Shown: positions 5,108-61,536 of the stretch, in pieces | Position numbering within the stretch: position 1 is the first letter of the stretch | Layout: every line of letters starts with the position of its first letter | DNA from: Armatimonadota bacterium | GTDB taxonomy: Bacteria; Armatimonadota; Zipacnadia; Zipacnadales; JABUFB01 | DNA length: 64,000 nucleotides | Assembly (NCBI GenBank): GCA_013314775.1 | Contig: JABUFB010000010.1 | Location: forward strand, 124,001-188,000 | Direction: 5' to 3' | Position numbers and translations under genes: made by a program | The notes under the pieces: generated by a model | Told to the model about the DNA's origin: nothing | The model's database searches: none | What the model saw: the letters and a program-made list of their open reading frames with translations, nothing else

Positions 5108-8100
5108 CTAGTCTTCCTCGATCGCGATGTAATCGCAGTGCAGACAACGCGCCGCTTCCCGGCAGGCCACGGGTACTGAGTAACCCGTTTCGACCTCGGC
5201 GAAACCAGTCCGCCGGTAGCTGTCCGGAATGCAGGGAACGGGTGTGGGCGGGCGCTCCTCCTCGCCGGTCTCCAAGGCTGCGAGGACCTGCTGTGACACC
5301 CGGGTGCGCGAGCGGATCTTCGGCTCGGGTATTGGCTCGCCCGACAGATAGCTGTGGATCGACCGGGCGACTCTGTGGCCATCGGCAATGGCGTCGACGA
5401 CCGTCATCGGCCCCTCGGTGGCGTCTCCACCTGCGAACACGTTCTCTTTCGCGGTGGCAAGGGTCACCGGATCGGCGCACAGCTTGCCGCGGCTGGTCTC
5501 CAGGCACGCGCACTCCGGGTCGATCCGCTGGCCGATAGCTGCGATGATCGTATCCACGTCGAATTTGACCTCGCTGCCTTCAACCGGGACCGGCCGTCGA
5601 CGACCGGAGCTGTCGAAGTCGCCAAGCTCCATCTGCTGGCAGACCATCCCGGCCACCTTGCCGTTCTCGACTTTGATCTCGCTCGGGGCCATGAGGAAGT
5701 GAAGCTGCACGCCCTCATGGGCCGCGGCCTCGATCTCCTCAGCATGGGCGGGCATCTCGTCTCGAGTGCGGCGGTAGACGAGGTGCACCTCGTCCGCACC
5801 CAGACGCAGGGCGGAACGAGCCGAGTCAATCGCGGTGTCACCGCCGCCAATGACTGCCACGCGCTTGCCGATCTCGGGCTGGTGGCCCAGCGCCAGCTCC
5901 TTCAGGAACTTGATGGCGTCCAGGACGCCGTCAGCATCGGAGCCCGGGCAGTCCAGCGGAATGCCCTGTTGGCAGCCGATGGCCAGGAAAATCGCCTCAT
6001 AGCCCTGGGCTTCCAGATCCGTAATGGTGACGTCTTTGCCGAAGGTCACGCCGGTCTTCAGTTCCACCCCAAGGTCCACGATGTCCTGGATTTCCTTCTG
6101 CAGAACATCCTGGGGAAGGCGGTAGTCAGGAATGCCGAGTGCCATCATGCCGCCCGGCAATTGCTCCTTCTCGAAAACCGTCACATCGTAACCCATGCGG
6201 TTCAGATCGTCCGCGGCGGTGAGACCGGCGGGCCCGGAACCGATGACCGCAACCTTCTTGTGGCGGCGCGGAGCAAGCTCAGGCTTCCACGCCTTGGTGC
6301 GATAATCCGAGGCCGTCCGTTTCAGGAGCCGGATTGAGACAGGGCCGTCCAGCTGGCTGCGGCGGCAGTGGGCCTCGCAGTAGGCGGTGCAGACCCGTCC
6401 GCAGACAGACGGGAACGGATTGGCGTCGCGGATGACCGCGTACGCTTCGTCGATCTGCCCTTCGGCCATGAAGCTGACGTAGGCGGGCACGTCGATCCCA
6501 GCAGGGCAGGCATGCTCGCACGGCGCCTTCATCATTTCCTGGCAGGTTCCAGCACGACAGTGTTTGTCACGAATGTGCTCCTCGTACTCATCCCGGAAGT
6601 ACGCAATGGTGCTCAGGACCGGGTTGGGAGCAGTCTGTCCCAGGCCGCACAGACTGGTGACCTTGATCTGCTCGCCCAGGTCCAGGAGCAGGTCGATGTC
6701 GCCGGGCCGACCCTCGCCACGGCAGATGCGCTCCAGGATTTCCAGCATACGCCGGGTCCCGATGCGGCACGGCGGGCACTTCCCGCAGGACTCGTCCTGC
6801 ACGAAGTCGATGAAGAACCGCGCAAGGTCCACCATGCAGGTGGTGTCGTCCATCACGATGAGACCACCGGAACCCATGATGGAGCCAAGTTCCTTGAGAC
6901 TCTCATAGTCCACCGGAGTATTCAGGAACTGGGGCGGAATGCAGCCGCCGGAGGGACCGCCACTTTGGGCTGCCTTGAACTTGCGCTTGTTGCGTACGCC
7001 GCCACCGATTTCGTAGATAATTGTGCCCAGCGGGGTGCCCATCGGGACTTCAACGAGACCGGTGTTGTTGACATGCCCGGCCAATGCAAAGACCTTGGTG
7101 CCTTTGCTGGTCTCGGTGCCGATGGAAGCGAACCACTCCGGCCCGTTCAGAATGATCGGGGCGATGTTCGCGAAGGTCTCTACGTTGTTCAGCACCGTCG
7201 GGCGCTGCCAAAGGCCTTTCTGTGCGGGGAAGGGCGGTCGCGGGCGGGGTTCGCCGCGCTTGCCCTCGATGGACGCCATGAGCGCGGTCTCTTCGCCGCA
7301 GACGAATGCGCCTGCTCCCATGCGCAGTTCGATGTCGAAGGAGTGGTCAGAGCCGAAGATATTCTCTCCGAGCAGACCGTATTCCCTGGCCTGGGTGAGC
7401 GCGATAGACAGGCGCTCGATGGCCAGCGGGTACTCGGCTCGCACGTAGATATAGCCCTTCTTAGCACCGATGGCGTATCCCGCGATGGCCATGGCTTCGA
7501 TGACACTGTGCGGGTCACCCTCGAGCACGCTGCGGTCCATGAACGCGCCGGGGTCGCCCTCGTCCGCATTGCACACCACATACTTGATGTCGCCCTCGGC
7601 TTTGGCGGTGAACTCCCACTTCAGGCCGGTGGGGAAGCCCCCGCCGCCACGTCCGCGCAGGCCGGAGTCCTTGATGATCTGGATGACTTGCTCCGGAGTC
7701 ATTTCCGTGAGAACCTTGGCCAGCGCCTCATATCCGTCGCGAGCGATGTATTCGTCGATATTTGTGGGATCTATCTCACCGCAGTTGCGCAGAACAATCT
7801 TCTGCTGCAGCGCGAAGAAGGGGATGCTGTCCATGTCCAGCGCTGGGGTCTCGCCATCCGCTGAGACATACATGAGGCGCGCCACAGGCCGCCCCTTCAG
7901 CAGATGCTCAGAGGCGATTATCTCGGCATCCTCGGGCGTGAGCTTCTGGTAGAAGACGCCCTCGGGGTACACCACGGCAACGGGTCCGAGATCGCACGAG
8001 CCCATGCATCCGGTTCGTACGACCTTCACTTCATTGCTCAGTCCGTGCCGGCTGATGGCGTCTTCCAGGGCTTCGGATACGCTATGGCTACCCGAGGAGA

Positions 8101-8149
8101 CGCAGCTTGCCCCGGCGCAGACCAGCACGTGTGACCGGTAGGTTGGCAT
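5108..8149 (-). CDS. hydB: HydB (NuoF-like) fused to GltD/NfnB-like FAD-NAD(P) oxidoreductase
   Basis: A 1013-residue fusion. Residues 1-110 are a thioredoxin-like [2Fe-2S] domain (Cys11, 16, 48, 52). Residues 125-520 are the NuoF core with the FMN/NADH glycine-rich stretch GRGGGGFPTG (166-175) and a [4Fe-4S] site (SCGKCPPC, then Cys501). From about 540 the usual C-terminal ferredoxin domain is replaced by a glutamate-synthase-small-subunit/NfnB-type module: N-terminal Fe-S cysteines (544, 548, 583, 587, 591, 595), an FAD site GSGPAG (637-642) and an NAD(P) site GGGDTA (768-773), with GGDATEGPMTV near the end. The NuoF half is the NADH- and flavin-containing subunit of bifurcating hydrogenases. 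The GltD half should add a second flavin and nucleotide site. No internal stop or frame break is seen at the join. The closest analogue I recall is the Stn/Nfn type of acetogen transhydrogenase. Confidence 0.93.
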   Translation of the reverse strand: MPTYRSHVLVCAGASCVSSGSHSVSEALEDAISRHGLSNEVKVVRTGCMGSCDLGPVAVVYPEGVFYQKLTPEDAEIIASEHLLKGRPVARLMYVSADGETPALDMDSIPFFALQQKIVLRNCGEIDPTNIDEYIARDGYEALAKVLTEMTPEQVIQIIKDSGLRGRGGGGFPTGLKWEFTAKAEGDIKYVVCNADEGDPGAFMDRSVLEGDPHSVIEAMAIAGYAIGAKKGYIYVRAEYPLAIERLSIALTQAREYGLLGENIFGSDHSFDIELRMGAGAFVCGEETALMASIEGKRGEPRPRPPFPAQKGLWQRPTVLNNVETFANIAPIILNGPEWFASIGTETSKGTKVFALAGHVNNTGLVEVPMGTPLGTIIYEIGGGVRNKRKFKAAQSGGPSGGCIPPQFLNTPVDYESLKELGSIMGSGGLIVMDDTTCMVDLARFFIDFVQDESCGKCPPCRIGTRRMLEILERICRGEGRPGDIDLLLDLGEQIKVTSLCGLGQTAPNPVLSTIAYFRDEYEEHIRDKHCRAGTCQEMMKAPCEHACPAGIDVPAYVSFMAEGQIDEAYAVIRDANPFPSVCGRVCTAYCEAHCRRSQLDGPVSIRLLKRTASDYRTKAWKPELAPRRHKKVAVIGSGPAGLTAADDLNRMGYDVTVFEKEQLPGGMMALGIPDYRLPQDVLQKEIQDIVDLGVELKTGVTFGKDVTITDLEAQGYEAIFLAIGCQQGIPLDCPGSDADGVLDAIKFLKELALGHQPEIGKRVAVIGGGDTAIDSARSALRLGADEVHLVYRRTRDEMPAHAEEIEAAAHEGVQLHFLMAPSEIKVENGKVAGMVCQQMELGDFDSSGRRRPVPVEGSEVKFDVDTIIAAIGQRIDPECACLETSRGKLCADPVTLATAKENVFAGGDATEGPMTVVDAIADGHRVARSIHSYLSGEPIPEPKIRSRTRVSQQVLAALETGEEERPPTPVPCIPDSYRRTGFAEVETGYSVPVACREAARCLHCDYIAIEED

Positions 8150-35489: not shown

Positions 35490-35851
35490 GACCAAATCAT
35501 CTCTCAAAGGATCGCGGAAGACCCACTGGCTCGCACGGCAGTACTCACGCCAAAACGGGGGTGCGGGGCCCCCAGCGCGAGAGGCTAACTGGGCAGCCCA
35601 CCACATAACCCCGTTGGAGGATGGCGGTCTTATCCGGTGAGTCTTGGCTGTGTTCCGCTGTTGGCATTGCGTCCTGCACGGGAATTATAGCCCTACAGGC
35701 GCGTGCTGTCGATGAGGATACGCCGCTTGAGGCACAGCGGTGGCCCGGAATAGCACCCGTCCGACACGGAGGCATTTCCCGGCGGGCGGCGAAGCTTTCT
35801 CCATTCCGGCCAGTGAGCGTGCCAACGCCAATCTGCCAAGGACGGTCCGAC
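35490..35851. other. 362-nt region between divergent genes, with long leader of the permease gene
   Basis: No real coding frame. On the minus strand a strong promoter at 35684-35712 would give a leader of about 190 nt for the permease gene. That leader contains GC-rich potential stems (GGGGGCCCC with GCACCCCC near 35560-35580). I did not find the conserved blocks of the ydaO (c-di-AMP) riboswitch. The plus-strand isomerase gene has its ribosome binding site just before 35852. Confidence 0.55.
35684..35712 (-). promoter_or_regulatory. sigma70-type promoter for the KimA-like permease
   Basis: Minus-strand -35 TCGACA (35707-35712), spacer of exactly 17 nt, and a perfect -10 TATAAT (35684-35689). 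The start of transcription would be near 35677, about 190 nt before the ATG. Confidence 0.72.
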
Positions 35852-36673
35852 ATGGAAGCGCCCAAGATCGGCTGTAATACCCTCTACCCCGACGGAATGC
35901 TGGGCGCCGAGGAAACCTTCACCACCGACTGCCACCTGCGCGCGCTGGACACCATTGCGGATGCCGGGTTCGATGCCGTCGAGTACTCCCATCCCGCGCC
36001 ACTGGATGACGAGGGGCTTGCGCGGGTCGCGAATCATACAGCCGAACTCGGGCTCATTTCGTGGTCCCTGCATGCGTGGATGTCCCTGCCGGGCACGAGG
36101 GACGGAATCCCGGCGGCGCTGGAAGCCTACGCCGACTCGGCAAGGCGCGCGAAAGCCCTGGGGGTGCGGGTAATCGTAGTCCACAGCAGCGGCGGCATTG
36201 CGCCCGAAACCCTTCAAGAGCGGCGCAAGGCCAACACGGAGACGCTGGTGGCGTTCTCGGAGATGGTGGGCCCGGACATCACTATCGCGGTCGAGAACAT
36301 GACCTCCCGCGCAGACTGGGAGTTCCTGGTGCCCCTGGTACGCGAGGTGGCCCTGCCCAATGTGGGACTGAACATCGACACCGGACATGCGAACCTGGGC
36401 GACATGAATGTGGTGGACTGCATCCGACTGGGCGGCGACCTGATCCGCACCACCCACCTGCAGGACAATCACGGCGCCCGAGATGACCACCTTCCGCCGG
36501 GGTTAGGCACCATCGACTGGCTTGCGGCCATAGCGGCTTTCCGCGAGGTCGGCTACAGGGGTGTCTACATGGTGGAGATCACCGACTGCCCCTACCAGCG
36601 CGAGGTCGACCCTCGCGGCGACACATTCAAAGCGGCGCGCAACCTGCGGGGATTCCTGGAGGCGACCGGGTAA
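35852..36673 (+). CDS. Sugar phosphate isomerase/epimerase-like TIM-barrel protein
   Basis: A 273-residue protein of the xylose-isomerase-like (AP_endonuc_2) family, starting at the ATG at 35852 with AAGGACGG upstream. Typical strand ends supply metal ligands: VENMTSR, NIDTGHANLGD, THLQDNHG and YMVEITD. No signal peptide. Members isomerise, epimerise or dehydrate sugars, inositols and related compounds. The specific substrate is not readable. It is divergent from the permease and lies 99 nt upstream of the large heme protein gene on the same strand. Confidence 0.87.
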   Translation: MEAPKIGCNTLYPDGMLGAEETFTTDCHLRALDTIADAGFDAVEYSHPAPLDDEGLARVANHTAELGLISWSLHAWMSLPGTRDGIPAALEAYADSARRAKALGVRVIVVHSSGGIAPETLQERRKANTETLVAFSEMVGPDITIAVENMTSRADWEFLVPLVREVALPNVGLNIDTGHANLGDMNVVDCIRLGGDLIRTTHLQDNHGARDDHLPPGLGTIDWLAAIAAFREVGYRGVYMVEITDCPYQREVDPRGDTFKAARNLRGFLEATG

Positions 36674-36772: not shown

Positions 36773-39700
36773 ATGCTCTTCGGGAGAGTCGTTCTCGTCC
36801 TCGCCCTCATGGCTTTCACCGCCTGCGCCAGCGCCGAGACCTGGGCGGTGCTCACCCGCGACGGAGCGGGCAGGGAAGTCCCCCCATATCTGTCGTCACT
36901 CGGAGGCGGCGAACGCGGCACCGGCGCGGTGCGCTCGGATGTCTTCGTCCTGGACGAGGACATTGTCAGCTTCGAAATGTGCGGGGCTGATGGATGGCCG
37001 GGTCAGCGCAAGTTCCGCAACTGGTTCGCGCTCTGCGACGCCGACACCGGGCTTGCGCTGCGGCGCACTCCCCCACCCGGAACCGACCCGATGACGCCCG
37101 TCGTGTGGGATGTCCTGGAGCTTGTGGGAAGGCGGGTCTACTTCCGCGCGGTGGATGGACTGGAAGAAAACGCCTTCGCCTGGATCGGCTGGGCCAACGT
37201 GCGAGTGGGTGACCGGGCAATTATGGGGACACTCACGCCGGGCCAACCGCCGGCGGGCTGGTATGAAGAGAAGAAGCCTGAGAATCTGACCGTCGAGGAG
37301 TGGCTCAACTGCCCGGGCGCCAGCGACGAGTATGCCCTGGAGGAGATACCATCCACCCGCACGTGGGGCATTATGACCACGAACGGGGAGAACCGCGCCT
37401 GCCCGCCGTACCTGTCTTCATTGCGCGGCGGGGAGCAGGGCACGGGTGCGGTGCGGTCGCCAGCCTTCGAGCTCACGACACCCGAGTACACCTTCTTCGT
37501 CATGGGCGCCGACAGTCCGTCTGGCGACCTGGGTCTCAACAGCTTCCAGCTTGTGGAAGCGGCGACCGAGAAGATACTGCGCAGAGCCCAGCCCATCGTG
37601 GGCAACACCATGCGCCCCATCACCTGGGACGTGCGCGAATTCCTTGGCAAGCGGGTGTTTTTCCGGGCGGTGGACAACAACCCCGCCAGCGGTTGGGCCT
37701 GGATCGGCTGCGACCGGATTCCCCTGGGTGATCGCGTCATCACCTTCGACCAACCAGACGCTCTGGACGGCTGGCGTGAGGAAGGCCTGGCCGACGGAGA
37801 GTTCAGAACCGCCAATGTTCGACCACCCACCCCCGCGGAGATGCTCGAGCGTGAGTGGCGGCAACAGGACGCGGCTCTCGGACTGCGCTGGGACCTGTGG
37901 CGACAAAATCCGGCGACCGCGCCCTCGCTCATGCGGCGGGTAGTGAGGGCGATGGAGGCGGGTTTTGACCGCGCGCGCCGGTTGATGGTCGACTTCGCAA
38001 CTGCTGGAATGCCGGCGAATGAACGGGCGCAATTCGAAGAGCGGTTCAGGCTTCTGCGCCGGCGGGTTGAGAGCCTGCGGCAGACGCCCGAGGATGTTGA
38101 CGGCTGGATGGCCTTGCGACGAGATCAGCAGGTAGCCCTGCGCGAACTGGCTTTCGCAAACCCCGCACTGGATTTCGAACGCCTGCTCTTCGTGAAGCGG
38201 TTCACCCAGCAGAGCTATGCGGACATCAATGTGAATCACCACGCCTGGGGATCACGTCCGGGCGGGGACATCGTTGTGCTCCAGGGGTTCCGGCCGGGCG
38301 AGGACTGGCGCGAGACGCCGCTTCTTGCCGGAAGGCTGGGCCCGGGAAACGTACACGGAATCGACCTGGATTTCGATGCCGGGCACATTGTCTTCGCGTA
38401 CACCCGGGCTCAGAGCAACGAGCCGCCGCCAGGCTGGACGGTGCGCCAGAACACCTATGACTTCCACCGCACGCTGGACCTGCTGCACCTGTATGAAATG
38501 CGTGCAGACGGGTCCCAGCTGCGCCGGATCACGGATGGCCAATGGAGCGACCTGAACCCGTGCTATCTGCCGGACGGCGGGATCGCCTTCGAATCCGAAC
38601 GCTGCCAATTCTCCCTCCAGTGCAATGAGTACGACAAGGACGAACCTACCACCAACCTGTACACTATCCAGCGCGACGGGACCGGCCTGAAGCGTCTATC
38701 TGTCACGAAGGACGGTGACTGGTACCCGCGCGTTTTGGCCGACGGCTCCCTCGTCTACTCCCACTGGGAGTACCACGAGCGCGGGCTTATGTTCCCCCAT
38801 CCCCTGTGGCTGATCCGGCCGGACGGCACGGGTCCTGACAACTTCGCGAAGCAACACTTCAACTATCCACTGACGCTGACGGTACCGCGCCAAGTGCCGG
38901 ATTCGGACCTGGTAATGGCAATAGCAACCGGTCATCACACCCTTGCAGCCGGACCCGTGGTGCTGGTGGACCGCCGGAAGGGGATGAACGATCCGGCGTG
39001 CATTACCCGAATCAGCGGGCCGGATATCTGGCCGGAACTGGGTGGCGCCGCACCGCCGCCCGACACGGAGGGTTGGCGAATCCCACCCGGACAGGGCTGG
39101 TACATGGACCCGTACCCGCTGTCCGGTACAACCTACCTTGCGGCCTACTGCGCCGGCTCGATGCAGGACGAGACCGGGTATGCGCTCTATCTCATGGATG
39201 TCTACGGCGGCCGGGAACTGCTCTACCGCGATCCGTCGATCTCTTGCGTCATGCCCATCCCGCTGCGCCCGCGCGAGAGGCCTCCCATCGTGGCGAGTGC
39301 CCTGGCGCCCGAAATGAAGGACGCGCTCTGCGTGCTCACCGACGTGACCGACGGCGTCCCGGAACTCGCGAAGGGCACGGTCCGGTATCTGCGCATCGCC
39401 GAACCCGTGCCGTGGCCATATGACAATGAGATCGGCGGGCAACGCTACGAACCCGACGCCAAAGCAACAGGGGTGAACTGGACGCCGGTGCGGATATTCG
39501 GCACCGTCCCTGTCGAGGCCGACGGATCGGCGTATTTCCGGGTTCCCGCGGATACCGAACTGTATTTCCAGGCGCTGGACGAAAACGGCATGGAATTGCG
39601 CCGTATGCGCAGTTACGTGAGCTTCCAACCCGGCGAGACCCGGGGGTGCGCGGGTTGCCACGAGACGCGGGCAGTGGCCCCTCGCCTGCCTTCAGGGGTG

Positions 39701-40435
39701 CCGCTTGCGGTTCGCCGCGAGCCATCCACGCCTGTCCCGCCGCCGTGGGGGCACAAGCCACTCAACTTCCTGCGAGATGTCCAGCCGGTAATCGACCGCA
39801 ATTGCCTGTCATGCCACAGCGGCCTGAAACCCGCGGGGAACGTGGACCTGTCGCCCGGCCTGACTGCGAACAATAACCGGGCGTACGACACTCTCATCGG
39901 GTTGGGGATGCTCTGCCTGAGCAGCAAGAACGACGACGCACGGATCACTCCCGTGGGCGAGTTCGGGTCTCACAAGAGCCGGCTGGTGAAGATCCTGCGC
40001 ACCACCCATGCCGAGCGCTGCACACTGACGGACGACGACTGGCAGCGCCTGTACATGTGGATCGACGCCAATGGCATCTACCACGACGACTTCATCCGCA
40101 AGCGGCCTGCAGGCGCCGCGGGGTATTCGCTGGTCGAGGATCAGGAGCTTTGGGCGAAAATTGGCGAGATACACGGCAGGCGCTGTTCTTCCTGTCACGC
40201 CGAGACCAACCTCGCCCGGCCCGAATGGGTCGATCTGAAGGATCCGGCAAAGTCGCTGTTCATCGCCGCGCCTTCCGGCCAACCGACCCCATCAGGACGC
40301 AAGTGCGATCCAGCCCCGTACGCCAAAGATGACCCGGATTGCGCTGAAGTCCTGCGCTTGGTTTCCGAAGCCGTCGCCCGGGCCTGGAGCGATCCCCGCC
40401 GCGACCTGCGGGCGATGAGACCCACCAACAGGTGA
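36773..40435 (+). CDS. Large secreted c-type cytochrome related to hydrazine synthase alpha subunit (copy 1)
   Basis: A 1220-residue protein with signal peptide (cleavage near ASAE, residue 21) behind GGGAGG at 7 nt. Two tandem copies of a beta domain follow (about 22-150 and 197-322; compare PPYLSSLGGGERGTGAVRS with PPYLSSLRGGEQGTGAVRS). A helical stretch (about 360-460) leads to a TolB/WD40-like propeller with DGSQLRRITDGQWSDLNPCY. The C-terminal third matches the middle domain of the hydrazine synthase alpha subunit, a fold widespread outside anammox bacteria. It carries three heme sites: CAGCH (959-963), CLSCH (1011-1015) and CSSCH (1138-1142). A hydrazine role is not implied. It is likely a periplasmic redox protein; its substrate is unknown. 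Confidence 0.82.
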   Translation: MLFGRVVLVLALMAFTACASAETWAVLTRDGAGREVPPYLSSLGGGERGTGAVRSDVFVLDEDIVSFEMCGADGWPGQRKFRNWFALCDADTGLALRRTPPPGTDPMTPVVWDVLELVGRRVYFRAVDGLEENAFAWIGWANVRVGDRAIMGTLTPGQPPAGWYEEKKPENLTVEEWLNCPGASDEYALEEIPSTRTWGIMTTNGENRACPPYLSSLRGGEQGTGAVRSPAFELTTPEYTFFVMGADSPSGDLGLNSFQLVEAATEKILRRAQPIVGNTMRPITWDVREFLGKRVFFRAVDNNPASGWAWIGCDRIPLGDRVITFDQPDALDGWREEGLADGEFRTANVRPPTPAEMLEREWRQQDAALGLRWDLWRQNPATAPSLMRRVVRAMEAGFDRARRLMVDFATAGMPANERAQFEERFRLLRRRVESLRQTPEDVDGWMALRRDQQVALRELAFANPALDFERLLFVKRFTQQSYADINVNHHAWGSRPGGDIVVLQGFRPGEDWRETPLLAGRLGPGNVHGIDLDFDAGHIVFAYTRAQSNEPPPGWTVRQNTYDFHRTLDLLHLYEMRADGSQLRRITDGQWSDLNPCYLPDGGIAFESERCQFSLQCNEYDKDEPTTNLYTIQRDGTGLKRLSVTKDGDWYPRVLADGSLVYSHWEYHERGLMFPHPLWLIRPDGTGPDNFAKQHFNYPLTLTVPRQVPDSDLVMAIATGHHTLAAGPVVLVDRRKGMNDPACITRISGPDIWPELGGAAPPPDTEGWRIPPGQGWYMDPYPLSGTTYLAAYCAGSMQDETGYALYLMDVYGGRELLYRDPSISCVMPIPLRPRERPPIVASALAPEMKDALCVLTDVTDGVPELAKGTVRYLRIAEPVPWPYDNEIGGQRYEPDAKATGVNWTPVRIFGTVPVEADGSAYFRVPADTELYFQALDENGMELRRMRSYVSFQPGETRGCAGCHETRAVAPRLPSGVPLAVRREPSTPVPPPWGHKPLNFLRDVQPVIDRNCLSCHSGLKPAGNVDLSPGLTANNNRAYDTLIGLGMLCLSSKNDDARITPVGEFGSHKSRLVKILRTTHAERCTLTDDDWQRLYMWIDANGIYHDDFIRKRPAGAAGYSLVEDQELWAKIGEIHGRRCSSCHAETNLARPEWVDLKDPAKSLFIAAPSGQPTPSGRKCDPAPYAKDDPDCAEVLRLVSEAVARAWSDPRRDLRAMRPTNR

Positions 40436-52284: not shown

Positions 52285-55200
52285 ATGGCCGACAGCCGGT
52301 TGCGGCGCGTCTTAGTCACTGCAACGCCGGCCATCCTCTGGTTTGTACTTGTCGCGGCCGACAACGGCCTCGTAGTGTATTCCGACCGCGCGAACAGATT
52401 CGAGTTCCCCGAAACCGACGCGCGGTTCGTGCGTATTCTCCTGGGGCCCGGCAGCGGCAATACGCAGGCGTGCATCGATGAGCTCGAGGTGTACGGTCCC
52501 GAGAGCAAGGAAAACCTGGCGCTTGCGGCGTCTGGAGCGAAGGCGTCCGCTTCCTCGTGCATTGGCGGCTACGTCCAGCACGCCACCGCGCACCTGAACG
52601 ACGGCGAATACGGAAATGCGCGAAGCTGGATTCCCGCCGGTGTCACGGGCGAGTGGGCGCAGATCGAGTTGCCGCAAGCGGCCCGGGTGTCATCCGTCGT
52701 CCTGTCGCGCGACCGCATGCGGCAGTACGGCGACCGTATCCCCAACCTGTTCGAAATCCAACTTTCCATCGACGGTGAGAACTGGCAGACCGTGCGCAAA
52801 GTTGAGGCTCGCGCCATCAGCGGAGCATTGGCAGGCAGCAGCCAAGGCGAACCGTCGCTGCCCGCACCCCCACCGCCCCCGCACGCTGGGGGCAGCAGTG
52901 AGACGCCGATCCCAGAGGACCTGAGCGCACCGGCGAAAGACGCCCTCGGCTTCGTAAACCTTGCATTGCGTCCGCAAGCGAAGGCATCTGCAAGTTCGGT
53001 CTATGCTGACGGCGGGCTGGCCATCCATCAGATTGCGCATCTCAATGACGGCAAGCTCGGCAATAGCAACAGCTGGATATCGAAAGGAGAGCCCTCGTGG
53101 GCGGAGATCGACCTCGGCGCGGCGTACTGGGTCTGGAAGGTGGCGTTGGGGAGCGACTCCAGCGCGAAGTACCGCGACCGCGCCCCGGCGATGTTCATCA
53201 TACAGGCGACCACCGACTCCCCTGCGTCGGGCGCCGAGGCACATTGGCAGACGACCTGGCGTCAATCTGGCCCCCCTGTAACTCTGCGGCGGGAGTTCTG
53301 CTTCAGGCCGGTGCGCGCCCGGCGCATCCGGGTCGCGATCCAGTCCGCATCGGACGGAGAAGCGCGTATCGACGAGCTTGAAGTCTACGGCCAGGAAGCG
53401 CCCATTGCGGTGGAACGCCTTGGCCCCTTGCCCGAACCGGAACCGGAGGTGCCCGGCCTTGCAGGTGCGGCTTTGCTCAGGATCGCCTTCCTGGCCGAAG
53501 AACACGCATGGCTGAAGACTTACGGACGCGCTGACCTGGACCCGAATCTGGTTCCGTACAATGGCCGCGTCACCGAATATCCGCGGCACGTCGGTGATGA
53601 CCGGCTGCCCTTGCCCCCTCTTCCCTCTTCCCCGGTGCTCGACGGCAGTCTCGATGACGCCTGCTGGGACTGGGCCTCGCGCGGTGTGGTGCGGGTAGCT
53701 TCAGCGGATGACTTCGATGCCGGGCCGCTTGTGGAAACGGCCGTGCATGCCGGGCGAATTGGCGGCCACCTGGTGCTGGCGATCCACGCCGGCCGGCTGC
53801 TTAGCAGCCATCTCGCAGTGCTTTCCTCAGCCAACTGGGAAGGGTGCGGGATCGTGGTGATCACCCCCGAAGGCCTCGTTTTCAACCAGTATTCGGAAGA
53901 CGCGCCCGGGCGGTTCAGGGTCGAGAAGAGCGTGCCGCTCGAAAGCGCGCAGGATCTGGACGCAGGTCTCTTCGAATTGCGCCTGCCGCTGGCGCTGTTT
54001 CCGGATGCGGAAGCTGTTGGCCTGCGCATCGGTCTGGGCATGGGAGGGCGCCACACAAGCCCGCGCGGGCGGCCCATACATTTCGCGTTCTCATCGCTGG
54101 GCATCGCCCAGCAAGGCAACTGCGAGACCGGGGCTTTCCAGGTGCGCCTGAGCCTGCCCGAAGGCGTCGCATCCGGCAGTGCAACCCTATCGCCCTTCGG
54201 GGGTACGGTTCCGCTGGCGCCAGGGCAGACCCGGGTGCTGAACATACCGGCGCAGAGGGGGCCCATCGGCAGGCAATGCGAGCTGAAGGTGAACGAGGCC
54301 GGGGTGGGTTCGTACACCCTGCATTTATTCCGGTATGATCCCCTGGAGCGCACACTGTCTTTGATGGCCGATCTGCTGGACCGGCTCGAGCGCAAGGGTA
54401 TAGATGTCGCGCCCGAGCGAGAGCGACTTGATGCATTCCGGAAGCTTCAGTCGGCTCTCGCGGCTGCCCCGCCCAATCTGAAAGCACAGCGAACAGCGTT
54501 TCTCGAGGCCCGGCTAGCCAAGCGTAATCTTTTCTTCCGGGAGCGCGAACTGGCGCCCCTGGAAAGCCTGCTGTTCGTGAAGCGCCACGCCTTCCACCCC
54601 TCTCATATCTACACGGACTACACCGACGCGCCGTTCCGTCCCGGCGGCGGGATATACCGGCTGGACATTCCGCACACTGGCGACCGCCTTGATCCGGAAT
54701 CGGCCACGCTTACGCGCTTGTTCGACTCGGGCGGGGGAATTGCCCGCGACCCGGCCGCCACCTTCGACCTGAGCCGCATTTACTTCGGGTACCGCCCCAC
54801 CAGAGACGGTTTCTACCATATTCGAAGCATGGATGCAGATGGCGGCAATCTGCGCGAGATCACGGTCGGCCCGTACCACGATTTCTACCCCTGCCCGCTT
54901 CCAGATGGCGGTGTGGCCTTCATCTCAACGCGCTGCGCCGCGAGGGTCTTCTGCTTTCGTGGCGGATCTTCGGTCCTGTTCCGCATGGACCCCGACGGCG
55001 GCAACATGCGCCCACTCTCGTATGCCAGCCTCAGCGAGTGGGCGCCTTCGGTCATGCGCGACGGACGCATCATTTGGACCCGGTGGGAGTACATCGACAA
55101 GGGCGCGGACTTCTCCCAGACGCTCTGGTCCATTCGCCCGGACGGCAGCCACCCGGAACTGGTCTTCGGCAACACCATCATCCAGCCCAACGGTTACGCG

Positions 55201-56427
55201 TGCGGGCGCGAGGTGCCGGGGACGGCCGAGATCTGCTGCACGCTGGTTTCCCATTTCGGGGACATCAACGGTCCCATCGCGCTGATCGCCCCCCGCGAAG
55301 GGCGTTTCAACCCGAAAGCGATCAGGAGCATAACGCCGGAAGTCCCCTGGCCGGGAATGTGGCCCTCCAACGAGTGCTTCCGGGACCCGTTGCCCATCGC
55401 GCGCGATTATTTCCTGTGCGCCCACGCGCCGCGAGACCGGTTCGGGCTGGCGGTCATCGACCGCTTCGGTAACCGCGAGTTGCTCTATCTCGACCCGGCC
55501 ATCGACAGCATGGGGGCAACCCTGTTTCGCCGCGAGACTCCGCCGCCGATCATTCCTGACGCCGTGGCTCCGTCCGAGGAAGAGGGCGAGTTCGCGCTGA
55601 TGGATGTCTACCAAGGGCTGACCCCGGCTGTGGAACGCGGATCGGTGAAATGGCTGCGGGTCGTGGAGGAAGTCCGTCACGACATCGCTCTGAACCCCAA
55701 CCGTGACCATGCTGATTTCATGAAGTGGTACGCATCTCCCGTAGACCTTGTGAGCGGTCCCTGCGGGTGGCCGGCATATGTTGCGAAGACGCCGCTCGGC
55801 CTGGTGCCGGTGGCGGAGGATGGTTCGGCACGGTTCAGAGCCCCCGCGGGGAAGACACTGTACTTCCAGGTCCTGGATTCTGACTATAACGAACTGCAGC
55901 GCATGCGGAGCATCGTCCAGCTGCAGCCCGGTGAAGTGCGCAGCTGCATTGGCTGCCATGAATCGCGGGCATCAGCCCCGCAGGTGAAGCGCCCCGTGGC
56001 CGTCACGGGGACGGCATCACAGCTTGTCCCGCCGTCCTGGGGGCCCGGTCCGTTCTCGTTTGAGGCTGTGGTGCAGCCTGTGCTTGATGCCCGGTGCGTG
56101 CGGTGTCACGGACCAGACAGCGAGTCGAAAATCGACCTGACCGGCACGCTCGACGCCAACCGGGTCCCCGCATCGTACCGGACATTGATCAGCAAGGGCC
56201 TGGTGCATTACGTGGACTGCGGCTGGAACTCGGGGGGCTGTGAGAAGCGCGAGCCGCTCACCTTCGGCACGGTGAAGAGCCCGCTCTGGCAGGTGCTGGG
56301 GAATGAACACCACGGGGTGACGCTCACGCAGGAAGAGGAGCTGCGGATCAAGACCTGGACCGACCTCAACTGCCCGCTCTGGCCGGACTACCAGTTCCGC
56401 GACGACCGGGTCGCGGCCATGCAGTAG
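52285..56427 (+). CDS. Large secreted c-type cytochrome related to hydrazine synthase alpha subunit, with discoidin-like domains (copy 2)
   Basis: A 1380-residue protein starting behind GAGGTGA, with a hydrophobic N-terminus (VTATPAILWFVLVAA). Residues 70-380 hold two F5/8-type-C (discoidin)-like domains, each with an ASASS plus AHLNDG pattern and a terminal IDELEVYG. Next comes a CBM9-like domain (about 440-640, SPVLDGSLDDACW). A propeller follows with NLREITVGPYHDFYPCPLPD, then the hydrazine-synthase-alpha-type domain (DGSARFRAPAGKTLYFQ). Heme sites are CIGCH (1221-1225) and CVRCH (1271-1275); the third site of the paralogue at 36773-40435 is absent. A periplasmic redox role on or near polysaccharide is inferred. 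Confidence 0.82.
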   Translation: MADSRLRRVLVTATPAILWFVLVAADNGLVVYSDRANRFEFPETDARFVRILLGPGSGNTQACIDELEVYGPESKENLALAASGAKASASSCIGGYVQHATAHLNDGEYGNARSWIPAGVTGEWAQIELPQAARVSSVVLSRDRMRQYGDRIPNLFEIQLSIDGENWQTVRKVEARAISGALAGSSQGEPSLPAPPPPPHAGGSSETPIPEDLSAPAKDALGFVNLALRPQAKASASSVYADGGLAIHQIAHLNDGKLGNSNSWISKGEPSWAEIDLGAAYWVWKVALGSDSSAKYRDRAPAMFIIQATTDSPASGAEAHWQTTWRQSGPPVTLRREFCFRPVRARRIRVAIQSASDGEARIDELEVYGQEAPIAVERLGPLPEPEPEVPGLAGAALLRIAFLAEEHAWLKTYGRADLDPNLVPYNGRVTEYPRHVGDDRLPLPPLPSSPVLDGSLDDACWDWASRGVVRVASADDFDAGPLVETAVHAGRIGGHLVLAIHAGRLLSSHLAVLSSANWEGCGIVVITPEGLVFNQYSEDAPGRFRVEKSVPLESAQDLDAGLFELRLPLALFPDAEAVGLRIGLGMGGRHTSPRGRPIHFAFSSLGIAQQGNCETGAFQVRLSLPEGVASGSATLSPFGGTVPLAPGQTRVLNIPAQRGPIGRQCELKVNEAGVGSYTLHLFRYDPLERTLSLMADLLDRLERKGIDVAPERERLDAFRKLQSALAAAPPNLKAQRTAFLEARLAKRNLFFRERELAPLESLLFVKRHAFHPSHIYTDYTDAPFRPGGGIYRLDIPHTGDRLDPESATLTRLFDSGGGIARDPAATFDLSRIYFGYRPTRDGFYHIRSMDADGGNLREITVGPYHDFYPCPLPDGGVAFISTRCAARVFCFRGGSSVLFRMDPDGGNMRPLSYASLSEWAPSVMRDGRIIWTRWEYIDKGADFSQTLWSIRPDGSHPELVFGNTIIQPNGYACGREVPGTAEICCTLVSHFGDINGPIALIAPREGRFNPKAIRSITPEVPWPGMWPSNECFRDPLPIARDYFLCAHAPRDRFGLAVIDRFGNRELLYLDPAIDSMGATLFRRETPPPIIPDAVAPSEEEGEFALMDVYQGLTPAVERGSVKWLRVVEEVRHDIALNPNRDHADFMKWYASPVDLVSGPCGWPAYVAKTPLGLVPVAEDGSARFRAPAGKTLYFQVLDSDYNELQRMRSIVQLQPGEVRSCIGCHESRASAPQVKRPVAVTGTASQLVPPSWGPGPFSFEAVVQPVLDARCVRCHGPDSESKIDLTGTLDANRVPASYRTLISKGLVHYVDCGWNSGGCEKREPLTFGTVKSPLWQVLGNEHHGVTLTQEEELRIKTWTDLNCPLWPDYQFRDDRVAAMQ

Positions 56428-57436: not shown

Positions 57437-60142
57437 TCAGCGGACGAACATCACGAAGCCCGCTTGAGGAAGATACCAGGTGCAGTTGCCCGTGCCGCGC
57501 CAGAGCACCCAGGGGTCGTCGCCCTGTTTGCGGACTGACAAATTGAATGGGTACCGCACATCGGGGTTCGGCGTGAAGCCCAGGGACGCAAAGGGCACCC
57601 GCATTTCCGCCACCCAGCGCCCCGCATCAATGACCGTCGCCGCGTACTGAATATTCTGGGCAGCCTTCTTTGCCACTTCCGTGGGCGCGCCGGCCTCCTC
57701 GCTTGAGACGAAGACCCCGTTGGTGAAGCCGCGCAAGACAATAATAGGTGCTTGCGCACCCAGTTGTGGGTTGCTGATAGCCAATTCCACCGCGTCACTG
57801 CCGCCCCAGTTGTCCTCGCGAACCATGGGAATGGACTTATTCACGAAGTTCTCGAGGCCAACATACAGCGCTTCGTCATCCCACGCCAGCCAGGCCCTGG
57901 TCGGCACCGGAACCTTCTCCCCATACACACCCTCCTGGATGACCATCCCGGCTTTCCTATCGAGGCCGAACCATTCGCCGGGCGCCAGCTTGCCATCGAT
58001 CACCGGAGGCGTGCTGGTCCGCGGGATTTTGAACACCGGCGCCGGCCCCGGCTTGCGTGGAGGCTTTGGCTTGGGTGGGGGCTGCGGGTTCGGGTCCTTG
58101 CGCAGTGGTGACACCACCGGCCAGGAGGCCCGGTCTTCGCTTTCGTACAGCCCGATTCTGTGGTACGGGATGGGACGGAACCCCAGTCGGCGCGCAGGTG
58201 ACTCGCGCTTGAGCCGGAAGCTTGCTGGAGGCTCTTCCACGAAGAGCGGGTCGACATCGATCAGGTTGTCCTCGAACTTCACCCACGGTTCGGCTTTCGG
58301 CTCCGTCCATCCCCACGGTCCGCCCCAGCAGATATTGCGCGCCATCACGTTGCCTTTTGGAGCGAGGGGCTCGTCCTCGAGGATGCCCAGCAGTTCCGGA
58401 TACTTGATCGACCACGGTGGCTGAGTGTAGTTGAGGTCGTGTAGCTCCTGTGTCGCGAACACGCCGACGCCCTTGGCCCAACCCAGCCCCCGGGCGTCGA
58501 TGCTGAAGGCCCGGTTGCACTTGATAAACATATTGTTGGTCATGATATTGTCGCGGCCGCCGCCGATGAGGATCGCGGTCGCAACGTCGTAGAAGATATT
58601 GCTCGAGATGTCGGCGGACGAGAAGCAGTCGTCCAGGTATACCCCGAGACACCCCTTGCCCATGAACCCGTGGATGTTATGCAGATAGTTGAACCGGATC
58701 TTGTGACCGCGCATGGACCAGGTCTCATCCGGCGGCGACGTGTAGATGGCGCCTGCATCGTTGGACTGGTACACCGAACTGTGGATCTCGTTGTACTCGA
58801 TGGTCTGATCGTTGCCGGTGAAGCCGATGGCTATATGCGGCACGTTGTCGATCAGGTTGTGGGTCGCGCGGTTGCCCACGCCGAAGACCGTGATCGCCTG
58901 CTGGTAGACCGGGTCCCAACGCGCGGTGTGGTGGACGTGGTTGTTTTCGGCGTAATGCCCCGCCGGCACGAGCGTCTTGCGGTCTCCGCCTTCGAGATGG
59001 ATGCCGCCCTGCCCGTTTCCGTACACATCGCAGCCCACCACACCATGCCGGAACCCCCCGTAGACCTTGACCGCCCAGTTGCCCATGTTTCTAATGGTGC
59101 AGGCGATCACCCGCACGTTCTCCCCGCCGCGCACCATGAAAGCGCTCCCGCGACCGGCCTCCACCAGCAGGCCCCGGAAGGTGATGTTGGAGGCATCGTT
59201 GAGCCTGAACAAGTCGCGCACGACCGACACCATCGCTTTGCCCGATGAGAGCGGCGCAGGCGGCCAGAAGTAGAGGATCGCGGTGTCGCGGTCCAGGTAC
59301 CACTCGCCGGGGCTGTCCAGTTCCGGCATCACATTCTCCGCGTAGAACCACTGGCCGCGCCTCAGGTTGAAGCTGCGGCCCTCTTTCGGCCCCAGGCTCA
59401 GCGTATTGCCGGCCGGGTCAATGGAGACCAGTGGAATGCGCTCGTCGGCCCAGTCCCAAACCCAGAACCCGTGGAGCCAAATGCCCTTCTCGTCCACCCA
59501 CCGGCCAGGCCGTGGGTCGTTGCAGATGAATCGGCCCTCTGGAGTGTTGGCATTGGCTCCCGCCGGCGCTCCATCGGAGTTGAGCACCTCGGCCATGTGC
59601 ATGTACCCCTCGTTCGGGTAACGCGAGAGGGTCATCGGCTTGTCGCGGAAGAACAGTTCCAGGCCCGGGTCCGACTGGTAGACCCTCGCCCCATTGATGC
59701 CCTGAAGATCAGTTATGCCCAGGGCGCCGAGGTCCGCCTGAAACACCTTCCCCCGGGCCACCGCGGGCAAGCGTTTGAGTGTCGCAGGATCACGCACCGG
59801 CCGCCAACCACTCACCACGCGGCCGCCCACGATCCGCACTTCTTCGCCCTTGCGCGCCCGGTACTCAACGGGGCAGGACTCGCTGCCGGAATCGGCGGCG
59901 GTGAACTCCACCGGTGCCGCGAGTTCGTACGTGCCGCCGGCGATCTCCACTACAATCGGCTCCTGCCGCCCGACCTTGTCAAGCTCCCGCACGGCATCCC
60001 GGGCACGCTGAATCGTTGCAAACGGGTTCGCCTGCGTACCCGGGTTCGTATCATCCCCCCCGGGCGCAACGTAGAAGTCAGGCGCGGCCAGCGCAGCGCA
60101 AGCCGGCAGCAGGATGAGACAGATCATAGTTGCGACGCTCAT
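57437..60142 (-). CDS. Secreted right-handed beta-helix protein with C-terminal CBM9-like domain
   Basis: A 901-residue protein; GGAGG 6 nt before the ATG at 60142 and an immediate signal peptide (MICLILLPACAALAA) fix the start. The opening FYVAPGGDDTNPGTQANPFA is the classic entry to secreted parallel beta-helix proteins. From about 330 to 600 there are repeated Asn-ladder turns (NVRVIACTIRNMG, HNLIDNVPHIAIG, IEYNEIHSSVYQ, DISSNIFYDVA). A Pro/Lys-rich linker (PNPQPPPKPKPPRKPGPA) precedes a CBM9-like or DOMON-like beta-sandwich (about 705-901, PPVIDGKLAPGEW). It is likely a polysaccharide lyase or epimerase with a binding module; no catalytic residues can be named. Confidence 0.84.
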   Translation of the reverse strand: MSVATMICLILLPACAALAAPDFYVAPGGDDTNPGTQANPFATIQRARDAVRELDKVGRQEPIVVEIAGGTYELAAPVEFTAADSGSESCPVEYRARKGEEVRIVGGRVVSGWRPVRDPATLKRLPAVARGKVFQADLGALGITDLQGINGARVYQSDPGLELFFRDKPMTLSRYPNEGYMHMAEVLNSDGAPAGANANTPEGRFICNDPRPGRWVDEKGIWLHGFWVWDWADERIPLVSIDPAGNTLSLGPKEGRSFNLRRGQWFYAENVMPELDSPGEWYLDRDTAILYFWPPAPLSSGKAMVSVVRDLFRLNDASNITFRGLLVEAGRGSAFMVRGGENVRVIACTIRNMGNWAVKVYGGFRHGVVGCDVYGNGQGGIHLEGGDRKTLVPAGHYAENNHVHHTARWDPVYQQAITVFGVGNRATHNLIDNVPHIAIGFTGNDQTIEYNEIHSSVYQSNDAGAIYTSPPDETWSMRGHKIRFNYLHNIHGFMGKGCLGVYLDDCFSSADISSNIFYDVATAILIGGGRDNIMTNNMFIKCNRAFSIDARGLGWAKGVGVFATQELHDLNYTQPPWSIKYPELLGILEDEPLAPKGNVMARNICWGGPWGWTEPKAEPWVKFEDNLIDVDPLFVEEPPASFRLKRESPARRLGFRPIPYHRIGLYESEDRASWPVVSPLRKDPNPQPPPKPKPPRKPGPAPVFKIPRTSTPPVIDGKLAPGEWFGLDRKAGMVIQEGVYGEKVPVPTRAWLAWDDEALYVGLENFVNKSIPMVREDNWGGSDAVELAISNPQLGAQAPIIVLRGFTNGVFVSSEEAGAPTEVAKKAAQNIQYAATVIDAGRWVAEMRVPFASLGFTPNPDVRYPFNLSVRKQGDDPWVLWRGTGNCTWYLPQAGFVMFVR

Positions 60143-60222
60143 CGTGTGCCTCCAGACAACGTAGTTCGCACTCACCCGGCTACTTCGGCACAGCGCGGCG
60201 GGCATCCTCCGCCGCCCGCGGG

Positions 60223-61536
60223 TCACTGCTTCTTCCCGAACCGCTCCGGGCACGTCCCGGCCTTCCAGTGCGGGGCGAAGTCGCGAGTGAGTTGCATATA
60301 GAACTCCGGCGTGTCGCCCCAGCGGTCGATCAGCGTGCCGTCCTCACTGAGGAAATCCTTCGGTTCGCTGTACGAGATCGCGCAGCCTTCGTCGTTGTTG
60401 TTCCAGCTTTCCACCAGGATGATGCGGCGGTCGAAGTGGGCCGGATCACTCAGGACCTTGCGCCAGCATTGGATGTACCGGAACTGGTCGTCACCATAGT
60501 CGGGGCTGAAATGGAGTGTGACCGGCTTGTTCCCGGTCTGGCGCGGACACCAGTGTCCGGGTCCGAGCGCGATGGCATTGGGGTAGATCTGCGGCCCGGC
60601 CATGCCTCCCCACCAGGCCACGTCATAGTCGACCACACCGGCCTGCGAGGTGACATCCGCCCGTCCGCCGTCTGGTTGCTCACCGTTCCAGCCGCCCACG
60701 AATTGTGGCCCATGGACGTGCTGGTTCACCCCGATATACGGCTCGACGCCGAAAGTCTCGCGGCAGAGCCGGCGCAGTTCCTGGAAGGTCCAGGCGTTCC
60801 ACTTGCGCAGCCCGGCATCCACCCAGGTCGGGAACCAGTACTGCATGATCGGCCGCGCCTCACCGTTCACAATGACCCGGGCCAGGGCCCGCAGGGGCAG
60901 TTTTGGCTCATACCCTGGCTCTCCATAGAACTGGCGCAGGAAAGCCCGTGTGGGCTCCCAAATCTCACTGATACCGTCTTTGGAAGCCTCGGTTCCGTCG
61001 CCGTCCTTGGGCTGGTACCACGCGAAGGGCGTCTCCAGGAACATCCCCATGGGCAGGGGCTCCTCGCCGCGCCGGTCCATCTCCGCCCACGCGTCCATGA
61101 GCGCCTGAAAACACGGCTGCGGGCTGAGGTCCTGGCTGAACCACAGGGAATGCCAGTCGTCCACCAGCACGAAATCGAACCCGCTCCATTTCATGGCGCG
61201 CCATTCGGCCATGAGCCACAGCGGGAACTGCTCCGGGTCCTTGTACGTGGCGGGCCAGCGCGAGGGATCAGGCGTCTTCCCCTCGGGCCAGTTTCTCGGA
61301 GACTCCAGGCCAAAGATGGATGCGCGCGGGTCATCGGCCGGTGGGAAGATGGCCCTCCACGTGCCGGACATGCCAAGCTGCCCGCCGGAGGTGACATTCA
61401 CATCATCCCACGGCCCACGGGAGAAGAAGTAGACCGCGAGCATGCGCTCGTCTTCGCCGAACACACCCTCAGTATCCGCGGCCAGTATGGGGGCCAGCAC
61501 CCACCCCAGCACCAGCGTCGCGGCCACTACCCGCAT
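60223..61536 (-). CDS. Secreted GH99-like/DUF5010-type barrel protein
   Basis: A 437-residue protein behind AAGGAGG at about 8 nt, with a signal peptide (VVAATLVLGWVLAPILA). The barrel carries MLAVYFFSRGPWDD at strand 1, FDFVLVDDWHSLWF, MGMFLETPFAW and the late ILVESWNNNDEGCAI. That last segment is the position of the ESWNEFxEG motif in GH99-like and DUF5010 proteins. Related enzymes act on mannose-containing glycans, but specificity here is open. It lies 80 nt upstream of the beta-helix gene on the same strand. Confidence 0.78.
   Translation of the reverse strand: MRVVAATLVLGWVLAPILAADTEGVFGEDERMLAVYFFSRGPWDDVNVTSGGQLGMSGTWRAIFPPADDPRASIFGLESPRNWPEGKTPDPSRWPATYKDPEQFPLWLMAEWRAMKWSGFDFVLVDDWHSLWFSQDLSPQPCFQALMDAWAEMDRRGEEPLPMGMFLETPFAWYQPKDGDGTEASKDGISEIWEPTRAFLRQFYGEPGYEPKLPLRALARVIVNGEARPIMQYWFPTWVDAGLRKWNAWTFQELRRLCRETFGVEPYIGVNQHVHGPQFVGGWNGEQPDGGRADVTSQAGVVDYDVAWWGGMAGPQIYPNAIALGPGHWCPRQTGNKPVTLHFSPDYGDDQFRYIQCWRKVLSDPAHFDRRIILVESWNNNDEGCAISYSEPKDFLSEDGTLIDRWGDTPEFYMQLTRDFAPHWKAGTCPERFGKKQ

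Follow-up and report, generated by a model that had tools for sequence, protein, structure and literature searches.

A hydrazine synthase alpha-like protein with two heme motifs and lectin-like N-terminal domains in an Armatimonadota bacterium: a putative glycan-tethered redox protein

Three kinds of described proteins come closest to the one reported here. The alpha subunit of hydrazine synthase (HzsA; PDB 5C2V; NF052339; PF18582) shares with it a three-part fold, two CxxCH motifs, and a His near the His772 position. Non-anammox homologues of HZS-alpha fall into clades I-IV, for which PMC12758564 also records the loss of Tyr591/Ser590 and Cys303 and gives His772 as absent in clade I; PMC10732223 deals with hzs-like genes of the same homology class. 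The PSCyt/PSD cytochromes of Verrucomicrobia and Planctomycetes, fused to CBM or F5/8C domains (PMC5615132, where the F5/8C domains of comparable cytochromes are listed under protein-protein interaction), likewise join a c-type heme protein to such domains in saccharolytic bacteria. However, the heme-domain families differ, and PF07635 (PSCyt1) gives no match in our protein. No mention of lectin/CBM fusions or of the present subfamily was found in the accessible portions of PMC12758564 and PMC10732223, and the literature searched, mostly titles and abstracts, yielded no description of lectin-fused HZS-alpha-like proteins. Within that literature the subfamily is apparently undescribed; its kind (HZS-alpha homologues, CBM-fused cytochromes) is already known.

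The gene lies in a window of 64,000 nucleotides, the whole stretch of DNA that was analysed, and is read as a single ATG-start frame of 1380 aa (Table 1). A same-genus orthologue is 89% identical, with dN 0.057 and dS 0.52 (dN/dS about 0.11), and we therefore take it as a real gene, which, judged by these rates, is under purifying selection. The order of elements is a putative signal peptide, two F5/8C domains, a CBM9-like domain, the propeller, and the HZS_alpha domain, with two CxxCH motifs. The signal peptide was called from features read directly in the sequence rather than by a dedicated predictor, and no second long membrane-type segment was found beyond it.

Table 1. Coordinates of the gene, its predicted elements, and two related or neighbouring genes in the window
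Feature	Residues	Coordinates	Strand	Basis or remark
Gene of the HZS-alpha-like protein, predicted to be secreted and diheme, with a lectin-like N-terminus	1380 aa	52285..56427	+	
Putative Sec signal peptide	1-25	52285..52359	+	Basic N-terminus and hydrophobic stretch, orthologues likewise
F5/8-type-C domain 1	about 37-178	52393..52818	+	PF00754, predicted model
F5/8-type-C domain 2, CBM32 fold	about 222-370	52948..53394	+	Pfam, model
CBM9-like beta-sandwich	about 440-632	53602..54180	+	Profile-profile match; beta-rich in model
Beta-propeller	about 755-1110	54547..55614	+	Via structural match to 5c2v_A, Z 33.5; next-best TolB propellers
HZS_alpha middle domain, PF18582	1119-1226	55639..55962	+	Pfam E 9e-20
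Segment before heme I with orthologue-invariant His1142	1129-1170	55669..55794	+	
Heme I motif CIGCH, without Tyr591 equivalent	1221-1225	55945..55959	+	
Heme II motif CVRCH	1271-1275	56095..56109	+	
Invariant His, candidate distal heme II ligand	1342	56308..56310	+	Alignment
Recurrent neighbour, TIM-barrel-like, glycosidase-like	993 aa	49256..52237	+	47 bp upstream; TIM-barrel read from sequence
HZS-alpha-like paralogue in the same window, with three CxxCH, from a different deep clade		36773..40435	+	

A relationship to HZS-alpha had been proposed in a preliminary description of this DNA, and structure prediction bears it out. For the model of residues 400 to 1380 (pLDDT 83, pTM 0.80), the best structural match is the alpha chain of hydrazine synthase, 5c2v_A (Z 33.5, with 556 residues aligned at an rmsd of 3.6), with TolB propellers next; Foldseek also matches it to hydrazine synthase alpha (E 7.6e-24). 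Because an alignment of this length and score is reached with the HZS-alpha crystal structure, we take the core relationship to be real; by the predicted model, the protein has the HZS-alpha fold, with a propeller, a heme-I middle domain, and a C-terminal heme-II domain. The propeller and cytochrome parts are also common to the 36773-40435 product, as had been claimed, with about 31% identity over 788 aa.

By aligning the orthologues and paralogues with genuine HZS-alphas from Planctomycetota genomes, which served as the yardstick, we compared the heme sites; in one genuine sequence (L058) the motifs stand at 583 and 685, in agreement with the Kuenenia numbering of PMC12758564. The two CxxCH sites counted earlier were found at residues 1221 and 1271, and both are present in every orthologue covering that region. 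The His residues of both hemes are kept, with HZS H587 aligned to H1225 (heme alphaI) and H689 to H1275 (heme alphaII). Tyr591, an axial ligand of heme alphaI, is absent (CSGCHYGSY in HZS versus CIGCHESRA), and no Tyr occupies this position in any orthologue or paralogue shown in the alignment. The Zn ligand Cys303 is replaced by Thr964, a weak criterion, as this Cys is also missing in one aligned genuine HZS-alpha (L059). The segment preceding heme I is 42 to 46 residues long in the subfamily versus 22 to 32 in the host-genome paralogues. At heme II, H1342 falls one residue off the HZS His772 column, and thus a bis-His heme II may persist, with H1275 and H1342 as the probable pair. For clade I, by contrast, PMC12758564 gives His772 as absent.

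The protein lacks a residue that is key to catalysis in hydrazine synthase, and hydrazine synthase proper was excluded as an identity. Since Tyr591 is missing, Cys303 is a Thr, the NF052339 equivalog score is 24 bits against a cut-off of 800 bits (genuine full-length HZS-alphas score 1351 to 1642 bits), and the genuine HZS-alphas lie far off in the tree, the protein is not a hydrazine synthase. This tree, built from 75 rows by a quick method, sets the genuine HZS-alphas apart in a clade of their own; their long branch meets the long row pC8c and drew a warning from the tool. The lectin-type N-terminus is a further difference from HzsA, as is the lack of a detected beta-gamma partner: tblastn with the host genome's beta-gamma-like protein gave no significant match in the 64-kb window.

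The clade of the 1380-aa protein has 100% SH-aLRT support and spans five phyla, with members from Armatimonadota, Hydrogenedentota, Planctomycetota, and Lentisphaerota and from one Nitrospirota MAG; its close relatives come from named Armatimonadetes MAGs. The preliminary description had called it the second HZS-alpha-like protein, and although the paralogy stands, the count does not, as the host genome has 11 HZS_alpha proteins. Across the phylum, 31 of 291 genomes surveyed have such proteins, with up to 26 copies per genome, and 29 occur in the genome reached through L045. Among 33 other family members, LamG domains are fused in 10, F5/8C domains in 8, and FGE-sulfatase domains in 5, and F5/8C is found on 5 of the 11 host-genome copies, well over a rough chance estimate that assumes 5,300 genes. 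On these domain counts, lectin-like fusion is family-wide. Other architectures were also seen: one paralogue (L014:4103-8587, minus strand) has a single CxxCH and a match to a GH2_N-like jelly-roll, and HEAT repeats stand where the others have their heme-II domain; another (L013:3114-7430, plus strand) has LamG in front and a C-terminal Mala_s_1/arylsulfotransferase-like domain; and L038:714-4787 (plus) and L066:8263-12063 (minus) join an HZS-alpha-like core to an FGE-sulfatase domain.

That the two copies lie within 20 kb of each other had been taken to suggest a shared system, which our data do not uphold. The tree places them in different deep clades, which also rejects a recent tandem duplication; orthologues of the 1380-aa protein do not pair with the 36773-40435 type; and when 11 genes are placed at random, about 19% of placements bring some pair as close as 12 kb or closer. 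An AP_endonuc_2 (xylose isomerase-like) gene, 35621-36673, lies 99 bp upstream of the 36773-40435 gene on the same strand.

The N-terminus was read by the preliminary description as two F5/8-type-C-like domains and one CBM9-like domain, and this reading was confirmed. Pfam detects two F5_F8_type_C stretches (E 3e-15), and in the model of residues 28 to 640 (pLDDT 78) domain 2 matches CBM32 structures with Z up to 18.7. Domain 1 looks circularly permuted in its element order, with the C-terminal hairpin placed first. A phrog_10304 virion-protein match was dismissed, being confined to an F5/8C domain. The CBM9-like domain has no Pfam match even at E<=1 (the PF06452 cut-off is not reached) and is absent among the 28 CBM9 (PF06452) matches of the host genome, because it is too divergent; in profile-profile comparison with host-genome CBM9_1 domains, where pairwise E-values are uncalibrated, it reaches 96% probability over 128 columns, against 0.2 to 0.8% for three control domains. 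In the structure searches, the result lists were taken up by CBM32 and propeller matches. We regard the F5/8C and CBM9-like modules, as modelled, as putatively of the sugar-binding type. F5/8C and LamG domains nevertheless occur on many secreted proteins in these bacteria, and F5/8C folds are not specific for sugars.

The gene directly upstream encodes a protein with only a sub-threshold CBM11 match in Pfam and, as a profile, no match in PDB at E<=1. A gene of this type adjoins the orthologue in three arrangements (same order in L028, divergent in L032, downstream in L042), in Armatimonadota loci only; outside this phylum, the orthologue loci have no general conserved neighbour, and a beta-helix protein recurs beside the orthologue in two Hydrogenedentota loci. 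In the window, 57437-60253 (minus strand) encodes a beta-helix protein with a weak GH141 match, which on visual inspection ends in a CBM9-like stretch; L028, L030, and L036 each have a related beta-helix protein in the vicinity of the orthologue.

Elsewhere in the host genome, a cluster on contig 5 (L009/L010, 62 to 98 kb) carries five HZS-alpha-like proteins and a propeller-CCP/MauG protein, together with ResB and a ResC-type gene for cytochrome-c biogenesis, alpha-fucosidase, a sulfatase, an FGE-type protein, GH2, and a 3-keto-disaccharide hydrolase. This ResB is the only one of the host genome, and within the class ResB accompanies the family (11/14 versus 7/32 genomes, p 0.0006); outside the class, a clear ResB was found in only 1 of 17 HZS-alpha-positive genomes. 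The ResB and ResC-type genes of the cluster and the co-occurrence of ResB within the class support real heme attachment. A search limited to heme-copper oxidase found none in the host genome, and PSCyt1 gave no match there, with the positive control equally silent. By eye, the product of 5108-8149 (minus strand) resembles a subunit of a hydrogenase or NADH dehydrogenase, of the NuoF/HndC type.

The fusion had been presented as direct evidence for redox chemistry aimed at polysaccharides. What stands of this is circumstantial, namely the recurrent glycosidase-like neighbour and the contig 5 cluster with alpha-fucosidase, sulfatase, and GH2. Direct evidence is too strong a term, because F5/8C and LamG are so widespread on secreted proteins, because domain 2 is patchy (it is missing from five orthologues aligned there, L034, L035, L036, L037, and L043), and because the neighbourhoods show no significant enrichment. 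In three genomes, 26 family regions showed no significant excess of sulfatase, GH, CBM, 3-keto hydrolase, or Gfo/Idh genes over 53 control regions, a negative that is not firm given the low sensitivity of single seeds.

We propose, at about even chances of being right, that the product is secreted, is tethered to glycans, and serves a saccharolytic host without heme-copper oxidase as a diheme protein of electron transfer or redox chemistry. It would be a secreted, soluble diheme c-type cytochrome that does not make hydrazine. Heme I would most likely have ordinary His ligation from its own CxxCH, and its distal side may be open or face a substrate, while heme II, if bis-His through H1275 and H1342, would probably relay electrons. 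The lectin-like domains would most likely anchor the protein to cell-surface or substrate glycans. Tethered in this way, it would move electrons, or oxidise a glycan-derived substrate, beside the glycosidase-like partner from the adjacent gene; movement of electrons at carbohydrate surfaces is the probable role.

The same architecture would also fit a general envelope cytochrome outside sugar catabolism, with proteins, lipids, or polymers of the host's own envelope as the ligands of its F5/8C and CBM9-like domains. That F5/8C folds are not sugar-specific favours such a role. So do the orthologues without domain 2, the lack of significant enrichment of sugar-degrading genes nearby, and the assignment of F5/8C to protein-protein interaction in PMC5615132. 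The recurrent glycosidase-like neighbour and the CBM32-type fold match argue against it, and we consider it unlikely, though by a measure that leaves it real weight. It seems improbable that the protein is itself an enzyme whose heme I carries out the oxidation or oxidative cleavage of a carbohydrate, for instance to feed a 3-keto-glycoside type of route, and whose heme II hands on the electrons. The lectin-like fusions of the family, the 3-keto-disaccharide hydrolase domain in 2 of the 33 other members and the corresponding gene in the contig 5 cluster, and the orthologue-conserved segment with His1142 are consistent with such chemistry, but the excess of 3-keto hydrolase genes near the family is not significant (3/26 versus 2/53 regions, p 0.32), and we know of no comparable heme enzyme acting as a sugar oxidant.

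Two further readings have very little probability. Action on small nitrogen compounds (NO, hydroxylamine), in the manner of the anammox enzyme, would suit the HZS-alpha fold, and other host-genome copies have beside them a propeller-plus-CCP/MauG protein that recalls the fused beta-gamma subunit; it is nonetheless highly unlikely, as Tyr591 and Cys303 are missing, the equivalog score is 24 against 800 bits, the window yielded no beta-gamma-like gene, and the whole host genome gave one CCP/MauG match versus 11 alpha-like genes. PMC12758564 concludes likewise for other homologues. The heme sites might also be vestigial in a structural or sensory surface protein, given that paralogue L014 has lost heme II and that a propeller with lectin domains could work alone, but both motifs and H1342 are kept in all orthologues covering them, in five phyla, and the low dN/dS indicates purifying selection, so that we give this possibility hardly any credence.

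A much broader view, which we regard as speculative and quite unlikely, is that HZS-alpha-like diheme proteins are widespread, unrecognised, heme-dependent glycan-targeted oxidoreductases of anaerobic PVC bacteria, Hydrogenedentota, and Armatimonadota, from which hydrazine synthase alpha was recruited. The HZS-alpha fold occurs in up to 29 copies in one uncultured saccharolytic genome, and its members in the present subfamily, which has five phyla, conserved heme ligands, and a recurrent neighbour, offer a concrete choice for expression. If electrons are indeed moved at glycans, organisms without the usual oxidase would have a redox step in the breakdown of carbohydrates that has not been described before, and the anammox enzyme would have a plausible ancestral context.
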